Assembly (NCBI RefSeq): GCF_900116295.1
Contig: NZ_FPAF01000009.1
Coordinates: 49,097-113,096, forward strand
Reading direction: 5' to 3'
From: Bacillus sp. 103mf
GTDB taxonomy: Bacteria; Bacillota; Bacilli; Bacillales; Bacillaceae_G
Length of the DNA: 64,000 nt
The translations under genes and the position numbers were made by a program. A model generated the notes under the pieces. That model saw only the letters and a list, made by a program, of their open reading frames with translations, was not told the DNA's origin and ran no database searches. Of the stretch, positions 7,992 through 16,335 are shown piece after piece (positions within the stretch are counted from its first letter, which is position 1; each line of letters opens with the position of its first letter).

Positions 7992-8187
7992 AACATAAAC
8001 ACCTCCATATTTTGGTTATAGTATACCTCTTTTTTAAAGTTTTTTTGCTAAAAACTATACATATCATAAATGTTATAAAGTAAAAATAAAAAATCCTTCG
8101 GAATATTTTTATTTATCAATTTATATTTTGGTAAAATTTATGTATTATTAAAGTACTAGGGGATAACTTAGAATGGAGGAGGGGACT

Positions 8188-9459
8188 ATGCAACAAAATC
8201 TAGAAAAAATGGGTAAGCAAATTTTTTACAAACGACTCCAACAAAAAATGACACAAGAAGAACTTTGTCAAGGCATTTGTTCCGTCTCATATTTAAGTAA
8301 AATTGAAAATGGAAAAATTGAGGCCTCAGAAGAAATATTGCAGTTATTATGTACGAGATTAGAGATTGCAGTTTCGGATTTAAGAGATATTGAAGCTGAA
8401 GTGAAAGAAAAGTTAGAGGAGTGGTTAAAGGCACTAGTTCAATTAGATAAATATAAAGTTGAAGAGTTATATACAGAATTAGAAGCAGAAATGCAACAAA
8501 TTGTAGATTTTGAAATTGTGAATTATTATAAGTTATTATATACAAGATATTTAATTATGAAGAGAAATATACCAGCCCTTAAAGAGGAGTTGGAGAAACT
8601 AAAAAAGGTTTATAAAAAATATTCTCCATTTCAGCAGCTGCTATATCAGTATAGTCAGGCTTTATGCTATTGCCTACAGCATAAATGGCCAGAGGGATTA
8701 CGGTTTTTAATTCAGACAGAGTTAATGGCAAAAGAACAAGATTATTATGAAACTGGAATTTATTATAATTTAGCACTTGCATATACTCATTTGGAAATTC
8801 CACATATGGCACTTCATTTTGCTAATATTGCCATGGAAGGATTTCGAAATGAATATAAATTTCGAAACGTAATTAATTGTCAAATCATCGTTGCGTTAAG
8901 CTATATTGAAAAAGGACAGTATGATGAAGCATTAAAAATTTATGAGAGTATACTACGTGAAGCGGATTCTTTTTCTGAAAAAGATGTATTGATGGCAATG
9001 GTATTAAGTAATATTGGCACTATACATTATAGAAAAAAAGAGTATGAAGAAGCTAAAAAATACTATACAAAAAGTTTACACTATCAAAACATAGAAGATG
9101 TAAACTACGTCGATACATTATATGAGATGGCGTTGCAATGTATTCACCTTGAACAATTAGAAGAAGCAAAAGAGTGGATTGACAAGGGTATTGCTTCTGC
9201 TAAGAAAGATGAAAGGTGTAATACGAAGTTGTACTTACTGCTTATGCTTCGTTATAAGTATTATACAGAACCAAGCGTAAATAAAGTATTCTTAGAAACT
9301 GAAGCAATACCTTTTTTCAAAAATGCAGGAAGTAAAAAAGAATTAAAGAAAGTATATATAGAACTTGCTGAGTATTTTGAGAATTATTCACAGTTCAAAG
9401 AAAGCAATCATTATTATAAGTTAGCAATTGAAGTGCTCGAAACGATACGGGAGGGATAA
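8188..9459 (+). CDS. nprR: RRNPP quorum-sensing regulator NprR
   Basis: The product has 423 residues: an N-terminal helix-turn-helix (about 8-60, with QEELCQGICSVSYLSKIENG) and then tetratricopeptide repeats to the C-terminus. In the B. cereus group NprR binds the re-imported NprX peptide and then activates nprA and necrotrophic genes; the peptide-free protein acts on the sporulation phosphorelay in place of a Rap protein. The start ATG at 8188 sits four bases after GGAGGAGGGG and gives the known family length; an ATG at 8173 overlaps the ribosome site and is unlikely. nprX follows after two bases and nprA after that, the canonical order. Confidence 0.93.
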   Translation: MQQNLEKMGKQIFYKRLQQKMTQEELCQGICSVSYLSKIENGKIEASEEILQLLCTRLEIAVSDLRDIEAEVKEKLEEWLKALVQLDKYKVEELYTELEAEMQQIVDFEIVNYYKLLYTRYLIMKRNIPALKEELEKLKKVYKKYSPFQQLLYQYSQALCYCLQHKWPEGLRFLIQTELMAKEQDYYETGIYYNLALAYTHLEIPHMALHFANIAMEGFRNEYKFRNVINCQIIVALSYIEKGQYDEALKIYESILREADSFSEKDVLMAMVLSNIGTIHYRKKEYEEAKKYYTKSLHYQNIEDVNYVDTLYEMALQCIHLEQLEEAKEWIDKGIASAKKDERCNTKLYLLLMLRYKYYTEPSVNKVFLETEAIPFFKNAGSKKELKKVYIELAEYFENYSQFKESNHYYKLAIEVLETIREG

Positions 9460-9461
9460 AG

Positions 9462-9590
9462 ATGAAAAAAGTAGTAATAGGTACGATTTTAACAATGGTG
9501 GCATTAGTTGTAATAGCTAATCCGCAATATTCTCATGTACCAGATGTTTATGGACAAGCCGATGACACAGTTGAAACAGTAAATATATAA
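9462..9590 (+). CDS. nprX: NprX signalling peptide precursor, variant pherotype
   Basis: This 42-residue open frame begins two bases after nprR. It has a basic start (MKKVVIG), a hydrophobic stretch to about residue 19, and then the presumed signal region SHVPDVYG (24-31) and an acidic tail DDTVETVNI. This is the architecture of NprX, a precursor exported, cut to a short peptide, imported and bound by NprR. From memory the B. thuringiensis peptide is SKPDIVG; here the corresponding stretch keeps the P-D-x-x-G core but differs around it and seems one residue longer. The gene is below usual length cut-offs and easy to miss. The exact processed ends cannot be read from sequence. Confidence 0.9.
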   Translation: MKKVVIGTILTMVALVVIANPQYSHVPDVYGQADDTVETVNI

Positions 9591-9611
9591 GGTGTGACCA
9601 TTGGGAATGAG

Positions 9612-9660
9612 ACTGACTCGAAATGTCGTTAAAAAACGGCCTTTTGAGTCAGTTTTTTTA
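9612..9660 (+). terminator. terminator after nprX
   Basis: ACTGACTC (9612-9619) pairs with GAGTCAGT (9646-9653), with partial pairing inside, followed by a T tract. It separates nprRX from nprA, so nprA needs its own NprR-driven promoter. Confidence 0.75.
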
Positions 9661-9673
9661 TTCCTGTTTTTAA

Positions 9674-9851
9674 ATTGTTCGTCAAAATTCTACAAAACTT
9701 GAGAAATAAAAATATTTAAATATTAAGATTGCAGCTCGTTTATCACATTGTAATCAAGTTAATGTGAGTATAGAATAACAGCAAAACCCTCTGTCCTGAT
9801 AAACAGGAGGGCTAAATAATTGTTCGTCAAAATTCTACAAAACTTGAGAAA
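9674..9851 (+). promoter_or_regulatory. nprA upstream region with exact 33-bp direct repeat
   Basis: The same 33 bases, beginning ATTGTTCGTCAAAATTCTAC, occur at 9674-9706 and again at 9819-9851, 145 bases apart and without a mismatch. The second copy ends about 90 bases before the nprA start. Between them is an imperfect hairpin at 9787-9811. Given the setting, the repeat may be a binding site for NprR or another activator; this is inference, since the exact NprR box cannot be checked here. Confidence 0.6.
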
Positions 9852-9917
9852 AAAATTTTTTTAATTTTCAGTATTTTAATAGTGAAAACTTAATGCTACT
9901 ATAAATCTACTCTTTAA

Positions 9918-11606
<1,689 letters not shown>

Positions 11607-11629: not shown

Positions 11630-11656
11630 AAAAAGGAGCATATGCTCCTTTTTTCA
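11630..11656. terminator. bidirectional terminator between nprA and the VTT gene
   Basis: AAAAGGAGCA (11631-11640) pairs with TGCTCCTTTT (11643-11652), a 10-bp stem flanked by A and T tracts. Confidence 0.82.
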
Positions 11657-12202
11657 TTTTTTCTTCCATGTTTTCCACAAATAAAATAAGCCCGCGCAAC
11701 CAGCAATTGTTATAATCCATTTTGCTTCACTTGTTCCGTTTATAACTTGGTAGGTAGAATACACTTCAATAAGTAGAGCCGGTATTTTCCCGAGAGTACT
11801 AGCGATGCTAAAAGTCAGAATGGACATCGTTCCAAGGGCTGCGAATAGTGTTACGATGCCAGACGGAATAAAGGGGATGAGACGAAACGATAAAACAAGA
11901 AAGAATGCTTCTTTTCTTTGTACATAAAGAAGTTTTTGTACTTTTGGATATTTATCTATATTTTTTTGAGCAGCTTTTTGAAAACCAAGTCGATATAAAT
12001 AAAAAGAAATAATAGCTCCTAATGATTCCCCTGCAATGGAGATGAGTGTTCCTGTTGTTACTCCAAATAATGAAATGTTAATAGCAGTCAAAAAAACACT
12101 AGGAATAATAGCTGTTAGGCTAATAAGAATATTGAATAAGATGCTAAGCGGAATTGCCATTGTTTGATGCTCTATAAGAAAAGAATGAATCGTTTCTGCC
12201 AT
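11654..12202 (-). CDS. TVP38/TMEM64 (VTT-domain) membrane protein
   Basis: The 182-residue product is an integral membrane protein of the DedA-related VTT superfamily. The core motif FRLIPFIPSGIVTLFAALGTM (about residues 106-126) is the typical F(R)-x-(I/L)-P-x-x-P block, and about five hydrophobic segments are visible. Proteins of this fold are linked to lipid scrambling or undecaprenyl-phosphate recycling, but the substrate of this one is unknown. It is a single gene convergent with nprA. A family B repeat lies just upstream of its start. Confidence 0.82.
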   Translation of the reverse strand: MAETIHSFLIEHQTMAIPLSILFNILISLTAIIPSVFLTAINISLFGVTTGTLISIAGESLGAIISFYLYRLGFQKAAQKNIDKYPKVQKLLYVQRKEAFFLVLSFRLIPFIPSGIVTLFAALGTMSILTFSIASTLGKIPALLIEVYSTYQVINGTSEAKWIITIAGCAGLFYLWKTWKKK

Positions 12203-12447: not shown

Positions 12448-12615
12448 GCATTACATCATAGTTTTTATATTAGGACAATAGAATTGTGGGAAATCATAGA
12501 TTTCTTTAAAGAAAAAGTCATATTTCTATAGAAAGAATTACTAGGAAGTAACAATAGGTACGATAAAATTGACTTTTTCTAAAGATAATACAATAATCAT
12601 GAAAGAGGTGATACG
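12448..12615 (+). promoter_or_regulatory. promoter region of the RNase lipoprotein
   Basis: TTGACT (12569-12574) and AATAAT (12592-12597) are 17 bases apart and the gene starts 18 bases after the -10 element. Nothing else is apparent in the remainder. Confidence 0.55.
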
Positions 12616-13122
12616 ATGAAAAGATTAGGGAATGTTATGATAAGCATCATGCTTATGATGATACTTGTATTAACTGGATGTTCAAGTCAGACTAAGCCGA
12701 AAGAAAATAATGCAGCATCAGTTGTAAACGTTAGTGATAAGATTTTAGATGAAATGGAAGGACCGCCAAAAAATGGTCATACACTAGAACGTCACGTTGG
12801 CAAAACAGATGAGCAGTTGAAAGAACGATTACGTACAGATAATGTATCTGCCGCAAGTACATATTATGATAAAGAAACAGCAACAAAGGCGGTAAAGGAT
12901 AGCTTAAAACAGCATGAAAAAGAAATTGAAAAATGGTTGAAAGAATCGAAGGAAAATCGTCTTGTATTGAATACGAAGCATAACTTTGCAGTTGGAAAAA
13001 CGGTATTAAAAAAGGATATGCGCGTAAAAGATGGACTTCGTAATACAGTAACTGTGTTGCAAAGAGATAAAGGGAGTCAGCTTGGTTTTAAAATTATTAC
13101 TTCTTATCCTTCTGAGAAATAA
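12616..13122 (+). CDS. lipoprotein with CdiA-CT-like RNase A domain (putative surface toxin)
   Basis: The 168-residue product has a lipoprotein signal peptide with lipobox LTGC (lipidated C22), a short polar linker, and from about residue 50 to the end a domain closely resembling the bacterial RNase A-like toxin found at the tips of CdiA proteins. Landmarks are GHTLERHVGKT, a middle ETATKAVKDSLKQHEKEIEKW helix pair, VGKTVL and the closing IITSYP. By spacing, H60, R71, T162 and Y164 would match the His, Arg, Thr and Tyr catalytic set reported for the Yersinia CdiA-CT; this is from memory. The toxin would be tethered outside the membrane. A 90-residue protein follows after 16 bases and is the likely immunity factor. 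Confidence 0.82.
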   Translation: MKRLGNVMISIMLMMILVLTGCSSQTKPKENNAASVVNVSDKILDEMEGPPKNGHTLERHVGKTDEQLKERLRTDNVSAASTYYDKETATKAVKDSLKQHEKEIEKWLKESKENRLVLNTKHNFAVGKTVLKKDMRVKDGLRNTVTVLQRDKGSQLGFKIITSYPSEK

Positions 13123-13138
13123 GAAAGGCAGGGAATTT

Positions 13139-13411
13139 ATGTATTCAACATTTCAATATTTTCTTAGAGCGTATTGTACATTAAGTATATATGAAGAAGA
13201 AATGGCTCATCTTATGCAACAATTTAAAGAACAGGAAGAACAAGAAACGCAGGAAAAATTATTACAAGAATTTGCTCAAATGCAAAAAAGAGAAGATTGG
13301 AAGAAAGTAAGGAAAGAAGCTGAACAATATGGAAATCGTATGTGGACAATAGAAGAAGCAAAAGTACATATCGGTAATTTTATTTCTATATTACAAAACA
13401 AAAAGGCGTGA
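13139..13411 (+). CDS. putative immunity protein to the RNase lipoprotein
   Basis: This 90-residue protein is rich in Glu, Gln and Lys and looks almost wholly helical. It has no signal peptide or membrane segment, so it should stay in the cytoplasm. It starts at the ATG at 13139 behind GGCAGGGA, 16 bases after the toxin-domain gene, and ends in a terminator, making a two-gene unit. The opening FQYFLRAYCTLS resembles the start of small CDI immunity proteins with an F-x-x-Y-x-x pattern, a weak likeness. Small cytoplasmic proteins encoded just after a CdiA-type RNase domain are usually its immunity partner. The role is inferred from position and composition. Confidence 0.6.
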   Translation: MYSTFQYFLRAYCTLSIYEEEMAHLMQQFKEQEEQETQEKLLQEFAQMQKREDWKKVRKEAEQYGNRMWTIEEAKVHIGNFISILQNKKA

Positions 13412-13426
13412 ATCATCCCGCCTTTT
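13401..13426. terminator. bidirectional terminator
   Basis: AAAAGGCG (13401-13408) pairs with CGCCTTTT (13419-13426). It overlaps the stop codons of both the immunity-like gene and the convergent vanW-type gene. Confidence 0.75.
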
Positions 13427-14669
13427 TGTATGTGCTTTTTGAAATTTGACCGCTCGAGAGCACTTGCCCATTTTGTGTTACTTTTTTATATGTTACAGCC
13501 ACAATGCTTTTATCAGTTTCACTTATAACTTTCGAAGAAACCTCTACATTTTTTCCTGTATTTGTACCGAAAATACGAGCAGTTACACTACTGCCACTCG
13601 TGAATGCTTGAATATAAATATATTTACCCGTATTATTTTTAAATTTCAAATCAGGGCCGTAGTCAGCAACTGCTGCATCTTGCCCAAGAGGTAAGTAATG
13701 GACCGGTAAAGAATGATTACTTCGAGCTACAACTCCTAAATCAGCTCGTAATACGGCACCATATAATGTGCTGCTTAATTGGCAAACACCACCCCCAGCA
13801 CTTTGTTCTACTTTTCCGTTTACATATATACCTGCTGATTTATAACCATGTGCTGCATCTGTTATGCCAACACGACCATTAAAACTAAATGTCTCATCGG
13901 GTGCAACAAATACTCCCGTTAATGTATCGGCAGCACGTTCTACATTAAAAGTTTGACTTGAGTTTCGTCCAGCCAGTGGGGTAGAGTATTCAGCGATTAC
14001 TTCTTGAATCCCCATCTTTTTTACATCTTCTGTTGAGCGCTCGGGTTTCAAGGCTGTAATTGGAACTTGAATATCTTGTTTATTTGTCGTAATGGCTTCT
14101 GTTGTGAGAGATTTTAATTTCTCTTTATCAACTTTTTCACCATCTTTACTTTCACTAATATTAATTGTTGTTCCAGAAATAGATAAGTCGGCATTAATAG
14201 GTTCTACTAAGGAATCATTATATTTTTCCTTAATAAATGCATCATATTTTGCTGCGTTTATAGAAGGCTCTAACTTATAGTCGCGTTTTAATTCACCTGT
14301 TTCAGCTTGTTTTCTCATTTTATAACGACTAGAAATATTGCCCTTTTGTTCTTTAAAAATTTTATCTGCAACATCTGTACTGTTATATTCAACCCCTAAT
14401 TCTTGCCAAGTATATGTATGTTTGTCATCCTGTAAGGCATAATTCACAGATTTTTTATTTAACTCATCAATTTTTTGTTGAATTATTTTTTGAACGTCTG
14501 CTTTCTTTTTCCCATCTATGGAAATACCTTCAAATGTTGTGTGGGGTAAAACGTATGTATCTAACTGATGATTTAATTTGGACACATATTGATAAGCGCT
14601 AACACCACCACCACAAAGAATGATTCCACCAGCAATCGCAGAACCAATAATCAAATTGCGTAATTTCAT
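13413..14669 (-). CDS. VanW-family envelope protein (YoaR-like)
   Basis: The 418-residue product begins with a single membrane anchor (about residues 7-27), followed by two repeats of a peptidoglycan-binding-like region (each with a pattern like DGKKKADVQKIIQQKI), then the VanW domain containing GGGVCQLSSTLYGAVLRA and RSNHSLPVHYLPLGQDAAV, and a short G5-like C-terminus. It is exported and should face the cell wall. VanW proteins are common around envelope functions but their activity is not settled. The ATG follows GGAGGGAAAT. It is a single gene, convergent with the RNase lipoprotein unit. Confidence 0.85.
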   Translation of the reverse strand: MKLRNLIIGSAIAGGIILCGGGVSAYQYVSKLNHQLDTYVLPHTTFEGISIDGKKKADVQKIIQQKIDELNKKSVNYALQDDKHTYTWQELGVEYNSTDVADKIFKEQKGNISSRYKMRKQAETGELKRDYKLEPSINAAKYDAFIKEKYNDSLVEPINADLSISGTTINISESKDGEKVDKEKLKSLTTEAITTNKQDIQVPITALKPERSTEDVKKMGIQEVIAEYSTPLAGRNSSQTFNVERAADTLTGVFVAPDETFSFNGRVGITDAAHGYKSAGIYVNGKVEQSAGGGVCQLSSTLYGAVLRADLGVVARSNHSLPVHYLPLGQDAAVADYGPDLKFKNNTGKYIYIQAFTSGSSVTARIFGTNTGKNVEVSSKVISETDKSIVAVTYKKVTQNGQVLSSGQISKSTYKKAG

Positions 14670-15000: not shown

Positions 15001-15057
15001 ATAAGCACATAAAAAAACAGCTGTTGTATTACAACAGCTGTTTTTTTATGTGCTTAT
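15001..15057. terminator. 57-bp perfect palindrome, terminator of the LCP gene
   Basis: Bases 15001-15027 are the exact reverse complement of 15031-15057, with a 3-base loop. The stem is 27 bp with internal T/A tracts that would work as a terminator on either strand. The last codons and the stop of the LCP gene lie inside it. Confidence 0.85.
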
Positions 15058-16070
15058 AATTTCTTATGATCTAATTTACCTGTAACACCAAGATGGCCTT
15101 GTAGTTCCTTCGTAATATCTTGAACACTCTTTTCTTCAGGAACATAAAAGTATTTACCATCAATATATTTATCCTGACCTTTTACTTGCAATTTATCAAT
15201 TTTTAAGCGGGAGTCCATTGAGTTTTTTGTAATTGCCATCATATCGTCGAAAGTTAAGTTTGTTTTTATATCATGATCAACTGCATCAAGTAAGTCACCA
15301 AGTTTGTTAATTGAATTCACAGATAATGCTTTTTGAGCAATTGCTTCTAAAACAAGTTGTTGACGTTGACCGCGCATATAGTCGCTGTCAATATGACGCG
15401 TTCTTGCTAGTGCAAGAGCTTGTTCGCCGTTTAAGTGTTGGCGACCTTTTTCAAGGTGGATAGCACCTTGCTGGTCTTTACTGTCTTGTTCAGTAAAGGT
15501 AACTGGTACATCTACATCAATACCACCAAGAGAATCAACAATTTTTATAAAGGATTTAAAGTTAAATTTCACATAATAATCAACAGGAACATCTAGAAAA
15601 CGTTCTACTGTATTAATTGTGCTATCAACGCCACCAAATACGTGTGCATGTGTAATCTTATCTTCTTTCTTTTCTGATGGAATATATACGCGAGAATCAC
15701 GAGGAATGCTTAATAATTTCACGGATTTATCGTTTTTATTAATAGTTGCAAGTAACAATGCATCTGTACGAGTTGCAGTTCCGTATTCTTTTGTTCGTGT
15801 ATCACTTTCATCAACACCCATAATTAGGATTGAAATATTATCAGTCATCGGTTTTACTGCTTTTTCGCGCTTGTCCGATTTATCGCCGCGTCCTAATTCT
15901 GAGTAAGCACCATTAGCAACAGCTTGTGCTTTATTATATATATGGAAGAAATAGCTGCCTCCTCCAATAATCAAGAGGAATAAAGGAATGAGAACAAACC
16001 ATAGTATACGTTTTTTCTTAGAGCGTTTTTTTTGTAATGCTCTATTTAGCGCTTCTAAATCAGGTTTCAT
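15054..16070 (-). CDS. LytR-CpsA-Psr (LCP) family cell-wall ligase
   Basis: This 338-residue protein should attach anionic glycopolymers to peptidoglycan from lipid carriers. A basic N-terminus with one membrane segment (about 20-42) leaves the rest outside. The LCP domain shows NISILIMGVDESDTR, TRTDALLLATINK, SIPRDSRVYIP, GGIDVDVPV and RARTRHIDSDYMRGQRQQ-type landmarks, including the Arg residues that hold the pyrophosphate. The ATG at 16070 has AAAGGAG seven bases upstream; an upstream ATG at 16091 would place that ribosome site inside the protein. It is a single gene and ends in a long perfect hairpin. Confidence 0.9.
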   Translation of the reverse strand: MKPDLEALNRALQKKRSKKKRILWFVLIPLFLLIIGGGSYFFHIYNKAQAVANGAYSELGRGDKSDKREKAVKPMTDNISILIMGVDESDTRTKEYGTATRTDALLLATINKNDKSVKLLSIPRDSRVYIPSEKKEDKITHAHVFGGVDSTINTVERFLDVPVDYYVKFNFKSFIKIVDSLGGIDVDVPVTFTEQDSKDQQGAIHLEKGRQHLNGEQALALARTRHIDSDYMRGQRQQLVLEAIAQKALSVNSINKLGDLLDAVDHDIKTNLTFDDMMAITKNSMDSRLKIDKLQVKGQDKYIDGKYFYVPEEKSVQDITKELQGHLGVTGKLDHKKL

Positions 16071-16335
16071 TAATATTTCTCCTTTAAACAATCAATTCAT
16101 ATATTTTCTTATAATTTTAAAAAAGACACACTTTCTATTGTACATAAATACAATTAGTTTTCATTAAAAATTTTTAAATGACATAAAAATGAAATATATG
16201 AAATATATGAAATATATTGTATTATAAAGATGTTTATATTGTATGAAAAGTTCTTGCACGAAAAACAGATGCCTTATAAAAAGGCATCTGTTTAAGAATG
16301 ATTGTATACAAAAAATAAAGGAAAAAAGATTTAAT
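16071..16335. other. AT-rich spacer with short tandem repeat and hairpin
   Basis: GAAATATAT occurs three times in tandem at 16191-16217. A terminator-like hairpin has arms 16263-16275 and 16281-16293 (AAACAGATGCCTT and complement). Nothing else is seen. Confidence 0.6.

Follow-up and report, generated by a model that had tools for sequence, protein, structure and literature searches.

A lipoprotein with an RNase A-like toxin domain and its probable immunity partner in Bacillus sp. 103mf: a candidate tethered counterpart of barnase and barstar

Results

Analysis of the window, the 64,000-nucleotide stretch of Bacillus sp. 103mf DNA studied here, outlined two adjacent genes encoding a lipoprotein with an RNase A-like domain (RNlp) and a small acidic protein (p90), for which the explanation we favour, with modest confidence, is that of a membrane-tethered, barnase-barstar-like surface RNase with a cytosolic inhibitor (Table 1). 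The features that can be read from the sequence itself are the domain and its catalytic residues, the lipobox motif, the pairing of the two genes and the kinship of p90 to genes located beside RNase A toxins. The pair combines a polymorphic-toxin RNase domain with an immunity-type gene in the absence of any carrier and on a predicted membrane anchor, an arrangement that has probably arisen twice. The lipoprotein is already known as a named family, and the domain and immunity types are also established. In the open literature searched, a scope outside which most subscription papers fall, no paper was found on RNlp, on its partner or on the re-mounting of the domain; within that literature, the link between p90 and immunity genes, the sister group of carrier toxins and a second lipoprotein form are new.

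Table 1. Features of the RNlp-p90 locus, in window coordinates.
Feature	Position	Strand	Evidence
RNlp, RNase A-like domain lipoprotein, 168 aa	12616..13122	+	PF18431, NF041883 and 5e3e_B matches
Signal peptide and lipobox LTGC, with Cys22 (codon 12679-12681) as predicted lipidation site	12616..12681	+	motif
RNAse_A_bac domain, residues 54-165, with H60, R71, T162 and Y164	12775..13110	+	PF18431
p90, acidic 90-aa protein without signal peptide; probably the immunity protein of RNlp, related to a divergent CdiI_2 type	13139..13411	+	
Promoter-like TTGACT-17-AATAAT, 5' of the RNlp gene	12569..12597	+	site scan
Stem-loop over the p90 stop codon, where the p90 and VanW genes converge; probably a terminator for both	13398..13429	.	
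Membrane protein with a VTT domain, also a neighbour in Ectobacillus panaciterrae	11654..12202	-	
VanW/PG_binding_4 protein, encoded convergently, also a neighbour in E. panaciterrae	13413..14669	-	

The promoter-like site upstream of RNlp is weak, since the scanned region contains five such sites and 5.0 are expected from shuffled sequences. The stem-loop at the p90 stop codon has a predicted energy of -17.2 kcal/mol (z -5.4) and is absent from the list returned by a simple terminator scan; its position fits the organisation of RNlp and p90 as a single two-gene unit (12616-13411, + strand).

A lipoprotein with a complete RNase A-like domain

The RNlp N-terminus, MKRLGNVMISIMLMMILVLTGC, is a lipoprotein-type signal, and its C-terminus encompasses a full RNAse_A_bac domain, matched by PF18431 along positions 1-113 of its 113-position profile (E 9e-29; 101 bits, with the cut-off at 27). 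The protein also matched, over its full length, the NCBIfam family NF041883, "RNase A-like domain-containing lipoprotein" (321.8 bits, cut-off 200), and this cut-off was exceeded by four of the four RNlp orthologs tested. Both the lipoprotein and the full domain proposed in an earlier note on this DNA were hence recovered by the profile searches. No barnase-type family was listed among the RNlp matches, which included PF18431.

The closest solved relative by sequence is the CdiA toxin of Yersinia kristensenii (5e3e_B, E 1.5e-15). RNlp residues H60, R71, T162 and Y164, put forward in the earlier note as a catalytic set, align to chain positions 8, 19, 109 and 111 of this structure, which a constant offset of 167 turns into H175, R186, T276 and Y278. 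These four residues are given as the active site of the Y. kristensenii toxin in the excerpted text of a published account (PMC9086364). Furthermore, the set is conserved in nearly all of the 28 complete domains compared here, with H60 and T162 present in 28/28, R71 in 27/28 and Y164 in 26/28 (Phe in the other two). On these grounds, RNlp is predicted to act as an RNase with an intact active site, within the bacterial branch of the RNase A group.

The lipobox occupies RNlp residues 19-22, and an LSGC or LTGC motif was identified in all seven lipoproteins of this form, with the lipobox Cys aligned in the six rows of the lipoprotein alignment (A2) and constituting the sole Cys of the mature protein in 7/7. 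Between Cys22 and the Pfam domain lie 31 residues, and a linker of 30 residues had been proposed; the spacer is shorter, at about 20 residues (23-42), because the ILDEME segment that precedes the domain corresponds to LDKME in the carrier toxins nearest to RNlp. No entry, translocation or escort domain was seen in RNlp. Single-chain AlphaFold models of RNlp and p90, built on the window and E. panaciterrae rows only, were poor (mean pLDDT of 52.8 and 44.5), and the five helices modelled for p90 prove nothing, given their low confidence.

The p90 partner and its kinship to immunity genes

The p90 gene starts 16 nt after RNlp, and its product has a pI of 5.7 and, by eye, no signal peptide. Searched alone, the window p90 showed no Pfam or NCBIfam match over a curated cut-off: CdiI_2 (PF18593) was absent at E up to 1, the best Pfam match was DAG_kinase_N (E 4e-4; 21.1 bits, below the cut-off of 23), and the PDB contained no solved relative below E 0.14. 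PF18593 was listed for all five p90 orthologs scanned, in every case below the curated cut-off, with E values of 1.2e-5 (26.4 bits vs 26.7), 1.5e-4, 2.7e-3 and 0.077 for the four scanned singly and of 4.9e-4 for the ortholog from G811. Unrelated families scored as high as CdiI_2 or higher for the Ectobacillus p90 (DUF505, 3.1e-4; ARMC9_ARM, 2.5e-3), and two other families did so for the L043 p90, the ortholog with the CdiI_2 match of 0.077. The barstar family was not listed for p90 or its orthologs.

The immunity genes located beside other RNase A toxins were sorted by eye into a canonical and a second type, and profiles were built for the seven p90 proteins (A4), for five second-type genes (A5) and for a canonical CdiI_2 set (A6). 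Profile comparison with hhalign matched p90 to the second type with 98.7% probability (E 3e-16, 86 columns) and to the immunity gene of an RHS carrier (L076) with 96.6% (E 5.7e-10), and detected no match between p90 and the canonical set (2.1%). Given these matches to A5 and the L076 gene, and not to A6, p90 is placed in the second of the two types of immunity gene. The tie of p90 to CdiI_2 proper is remote and in part transitive. The A5 and A6 profiles matched each other weakly (43%). Four of the five A5 genes were scanned against PF18593, yielding E values of 5.4e-8, 4.2e-5, 1.6e-4 and 2.3e-3, and among these four only the L027 gene (5.4e-8) exceeded the cut-off; two scanned genes of canonical type gave 3.6e-13 and 3.2e-20. 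In the PDB, the CdiI chain of Y. kristensenii (5e3e_A) was absent from the matches of the p90 profile up to E 10, and the canonical set matched it weakly (E 0.018). The top match of the p90 profile, PrgX, was rejected as a relative: its E value of 5e-4 holds for the whole sequence, the two matching stretches score 1.7 and 16, and the similarity is attributed to helical chance. The match to second-type genes strengthens the suggestion that the small acidic protein is an immunity partner and, together with the constant pairing of the two genes described below, makes p90 very probably the immunity protein of RNlp.

Distribution and pairing of RNlp and p90

Peptide-pattern scans with RNlp returned no relatives. 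Scanning with the neighbouring VanW protein identified 13 loci, with no B. cereus-group record among them, including one in E. panaciterrae (L001) in which VTT, RNlp (62%), p90 (42%) and VanW genes lie together in the same arrangement as in the window. A PF18431 search of 397 genomes from the Ectobacillus order yielded 21 genomes with matches at E up to 0.001, 20 of them over the cut-off, and none in 14 control genomes. The domain, previously described as known mainly from Gram-negative bacteria, is hence not confined to them. The lipoprotein form was present in five of the 397 genomes (G001, G078, G232, G274 and G333), at 53-62% identity and with p90 adjoining in all five. Searches at the family level added one further RNlp, likewise with p90 (G811), and a related carrier toxin (G797); in four families searched, the lipoprotein form was found in 1/19, 2/16, 1/26 and 2/34 genomes. 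Wider samples were sparser. In the class sample, 19 of 398 genomes matched the A2 lipoprotein profile at all, some of them through the signal peptide or a fragment only, and a full-length match came from G001 alone; in the phylum sample, PF18431 matched three of 398 genomes, two of them over the cut-off.

The p90 gene lies directly 3' of RNlp in the seven lipoprotein loci, window included, with gaps of 0-16 nt. Homologs without the small downstream gene, which the earlier note had named as grounds for refuting its proposal, are thus represented by none of the seven. By eye, these loci fall into five gene neighbourhoods, with the window resembling L001, L043 resembling L044 and the remaining three all different, and the pairing in 7/7 loci across such differing neighbourhoods suggests that RNlp and p90 move as a unit. 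A mobile-element origin was rejected: no relatives were found in phages or viral contigs, and among 72,556 records of plasmids only six gave matches, all of them distant (27-39% identity).

In the one close species pair for which dN/dS was computed, with a simple method (L043/L044), values were 0.10 for RNlp, 0.45 for p90 and 0-0.12 for six neighbouring genes. In this pair, the RNase is kept under purifying selection and its partner changes faster. p90 is acidic in 7/7 loci (pI 4.1-5.7), and mature RNlp is basic in five of the seven (pI 8.6-9.8), with a pI of 6.5 in the other two.

Carrier toxins and orphan immunity genes

The order and phylum searches provided 28 PF18431 loci, encompassing five of the lipoprotein form and 18 others that were examined, with L035, L038, L039, L040 and L042 left out. 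Inspection of the 18 loci by eye identified a full small immunity-type gene directly 3' of the toxin in 15; among the remaining three, the gene lies beyond the locus end in one (L068), is shortened in another and is missing from the last. Where the toxin domain is complete, an immunity-type gene was present in 11/11. In G301 (L032, 901-3001, and L039), a PF18431 toxin frame is interrupted, by eye, by an apparent transposase gene.

Searching the order sample with the p90 profile identified 11 of 397 genomes: the five with the lipoprotein form, three with carrier toxins (G031, G238 and G301) and three without PF18431. In this last group, G260 and G396 present an intact second-type immunity frame and G351 a broken one (L066, L069 and L070, near 1500-1780), with no PF18431 match. 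In addition, G274 and G333 each harbour one further p90-like gene amid other small genes and without a PF18431 match there. Judging from these sequences, the p90-like genes of G260, G396 and G351 resemble orphan immunity genes, as do the additional ones carried by G274 and G333. One small-gene cluster (L096, 4996-8443) comprises an orphan p90-like gene and repeated unknown genes and looks like an immunity island; the sole PF18431 match of its genome is the lipoprotein, located elsewhere.

Origin of the lipoprotein form and a second instance

A tree was inferred from 28 complete domains out of 42 distinct profile matches. The 14 rows left out correspond to nine partial or broken toxin frames, four proteins that match solely through their own lipoprotein signal (L055, L088, L089 and L090) and one weak match (L087). 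The seven lipoproteins occupy one side of a branch (support 90/92, not starred), and their tree neighbours are L054 and L076 (joint support 90/82, not starred). The former, as L058, carries a PT-TG pre-toxin region and the latter RHS repeats, both accompanied by p90-like second-type immunity genes. The LDKME motif preceding the domain in L054 and L076 corresponds to LDEME or LDDME in the lipoproteins, and the toxin module is taken to begin at this motif because carriers and lipoproteins have it in common. The simplest history compatible with these sequences would be that a cassette of toxin and immunity gene was captured by a lipoprotein signal.

The class search revealed a second lipoprotein-RNase A protein in G935 (L077/L095; L095 5351-6213), 184 aa long from its first ATG, with a signal ending in LLAFLTAC, a PF18431 match of 1.5e-29 and a canonical CdiI_2 gene directly 3' (7.5e-16). 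In the family of G935, a full match was found in this genome only among 23, and one other presented a 36-residue partial match. L077 falls among the canonical-type toxins in the tree (97/94, starred). A single origin for all lipoprotein RNases was rejected, since forcing L077 to group with the seven costs 30.3 log-likelihood units (AU p = 0.033); this constitutes moderate evidence, as the group was chosen after the tree had been seen and the test used 25 rows, with three long branches removed. L077/L095 is probably a second, separate capture.

Discussion

RNlp belongs to the same family as NF041883 over its full length, under a name that covers the lipoprotein only and not its partner, its immunity kinship or its carrier-toxin origin. 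It shares with the CdiA-CT/CdiI pair of Y. kristensenii (5e3e) the PF18431 domain, the same four active-site residues and a small immunity gene after the toxin, but, in comparison with this pair and with CdiBAI systems, has no CdiA stalk or other large carrier, being 168 residues in all, as the earlier note had remarked. A CdiB transporter was likewise absent from the few neighbouring genes scanned. The PT-TG, RHS, LXG and PG_binding_1 carrier toxins of the Bacilli, which bear RNAse_A_bac domains at their C-terminus, have homologous immunity genes, and the domains nearest to RNlp are those of PT-TG and RHS carriers. Their carriers span some 350-640 residues or more, whereas RNlp presents a signal peptide and lipobox instead. 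In gene anatomy RNlp-p90 also resembles, as far as the excerpted sources describe it, the barnase-barstar pair of Bacillus amyloliquefaciens, a small carrier-free exported RNase with an intracellular inhibitor; the RNase and inhibitor families differ, and barnase is released, whereas RNlp is predicted to be lipid-anchored. According to the portions of the literature available, barstar protects the producer from barnase present inside the cell (PMC8625414), and simple barnase-barstar pairs might represent an incipient toxin-immunity order without notable polymorphism (PMC3482391). The anatomy of RNlp-p90 would likewise fit that of the myxobacterial SitA/SitI systems, in which lipoprotein nuclease toxins are accompanied by cognate immunity proteins; as described in the excerpted text, SitA proteins comprise several nuclease types, bear an escort domain some 375 aa long and are delivered by outer membrane exchange (PMC8546572), and RNlp has no escort domain. 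MafB2 of Neisseria is described, again in excerpt, as another RNase A-fold polymorphic toxin with a different immunity protein (PMC9970974).

In the explanation that we place first, the lipoprotein signal would export RNlp and leave the RNase anchored to the outside of the cell membrane, and p90 would remain in the cytosol and block the enzyme until it has been exported, in the manner of barstar with barnase. An RNase A domain with a CdiI_2-like immunity gene may have been re-mounted as a cassette on a lipoprotein signal, after which the two would have been retained together and passed jointly from one genus to another; the first targets would be extracellular RNAs or those of dying neighbours, and not the cytosol of a neighbour. 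Toxins delivered to a cytosolic target usually possess entry parts, and it is because RNlp has some 20 residues in their place that this reading was ranked before that of a contact toxin; a surface RNase with a cytosolic safety inhibitor also appears to require fewer assumptions. It has to contend with the fact that its relatives are antibacterial-type toxins and that orphan immunity-type genes occur, both of which suit a weapon better than a scavenging enzyme. Barnase, moreover, is secreted freely, so that the tethering of RNlp is left without explanation, and the window p90 lacks PF18593, with all five ortholog matches below cut-off. We assign a much lower, though by no means negligible, probability to the proposal of the earlier note, a minimal carrier-free contact toxin. 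In such a reading, the tethered RNase would be handed to adjoining cells through vesicles, by exchange of lipoproteins or membrane, or after its tether is cut, would enter their cytosol and cut RNA there, with p90 protecting kin. The toxin domain, lipoprotein signal and immunity-type partner of the earlier proposal were all borne out, but nothing resembling an entry or translocation domain lies in the roughly 20 residues between Cys22 and the toxin module. The nearest domain relatives, C-terminal toxins on PT-TG and RHS carriers with homologous immunity genes, speak for a weapon, as do the immunity-type genes devoid of a PF18431 toxin (second copies in G274 and G333; G260 and G396; broken in G351), the patchy distribution (5/397 genomes of the order sample) and the second, probably separately mounted lipoprotein-RNase A with CdiI_2 (L077/L095). 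Lipoprotein toxins with immunity proteins are, in addition, known from myxobacteria in the text excerpted (PMC8546572). Against this stand the single domain type found on the RNlp clade and the strong conservation of RNlp (dN/dS 0.10, one pair). We know of no lipoprotein-exchange route between Gram-positive cells, which also weighs against delivery. That RNlp is a minimal Gram-positive counterpart of SitA, a lipid-tethered RNase A toxin directed against neighbours and mounted at least twice on a lipoprotein signal, is accordingly worded here as a tentative and rather unlikely possibility.

Two further readings concern the role of p90. The pair could be an old cassette put to another housekeeping use, for instance RNA turnover within the biofilm matrix or the zone of the wall, in which p90 would be a specific chaperone or secretion partner and not an inhibitor. 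The VTT-RNlp-p90-VanW block common to the window and E. panaciterrae, and the purifying selection on RNlp in one species pair, would agree with this reading, which we nonetheless consider improbable: the cassette lies in other neighbourhoods at the other five loci, and p90 is kin to genes located beside RNase A toxins on several unrelated carriers, a kinship that makes inhibition the simplest role for p90. It is more improbable still, to the point of being hardly credible, that p90 has no immunity role and that its pairing with RNlp is an accident of a shared operon. The window p90 shows no family match over a curated cut-off and no solved relative below E 0.1, as such an accident would allow, but the pairing holds in 7/7 loci and five neighbourhoods, five immunity genes that accompany other RNase A toxins are matched by the p90 profile at 98.7%, and the four of those genes that were scanned all list CdiI_2, with the L027 gene over the cut-off. 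Should the preferred reading of a surface RNase be true, RNlp-p90 would represent an RNase A-family counterpart of barnase-barstar; should the pair be a weapon, it would pose the question of how a tethered enzyme of about 150 residues without an entry domain reaches a neighbour's cytosol. The pair is small, stand-alone and easily tested either way.

Other observations at the locus

Past the VanW gene, the window contains a gene of the LytR_cpsA_psr family (15054-16091), with a similar neighbour, by eye, in E. panaciterrae (L001, 6333-7346). A second VanW-type gene of E. panaciterrae (L002), at 66% to that of the window, is accompanied by neither RNlp nor p90 in the 17 kb fetched. Positions 8173-11606 of the window encode a regulator with HTH and TPR repeats, a neutral protease of the M4 type and, at 9462-9590, a peptide of 42 aa. 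This region, just upstream of RNlp, looks like an NprR-NprX-NprA quorum-sensing locus, a resemblance that suggests an origin of the DNA in the B. cereus group. The RNlp gene was not found as a member of the NprR regulon in the excerpted text of two NprR papers (PMC3325205 and PMC7756075), searched for mentions of a lipoprotein or of an RNase or ribonuclease; the single RNase mentioned there is a reagent. The 42-aa peptide contains the sequence SHVPDVYG, which may correspond to an unusual pheromone variant.
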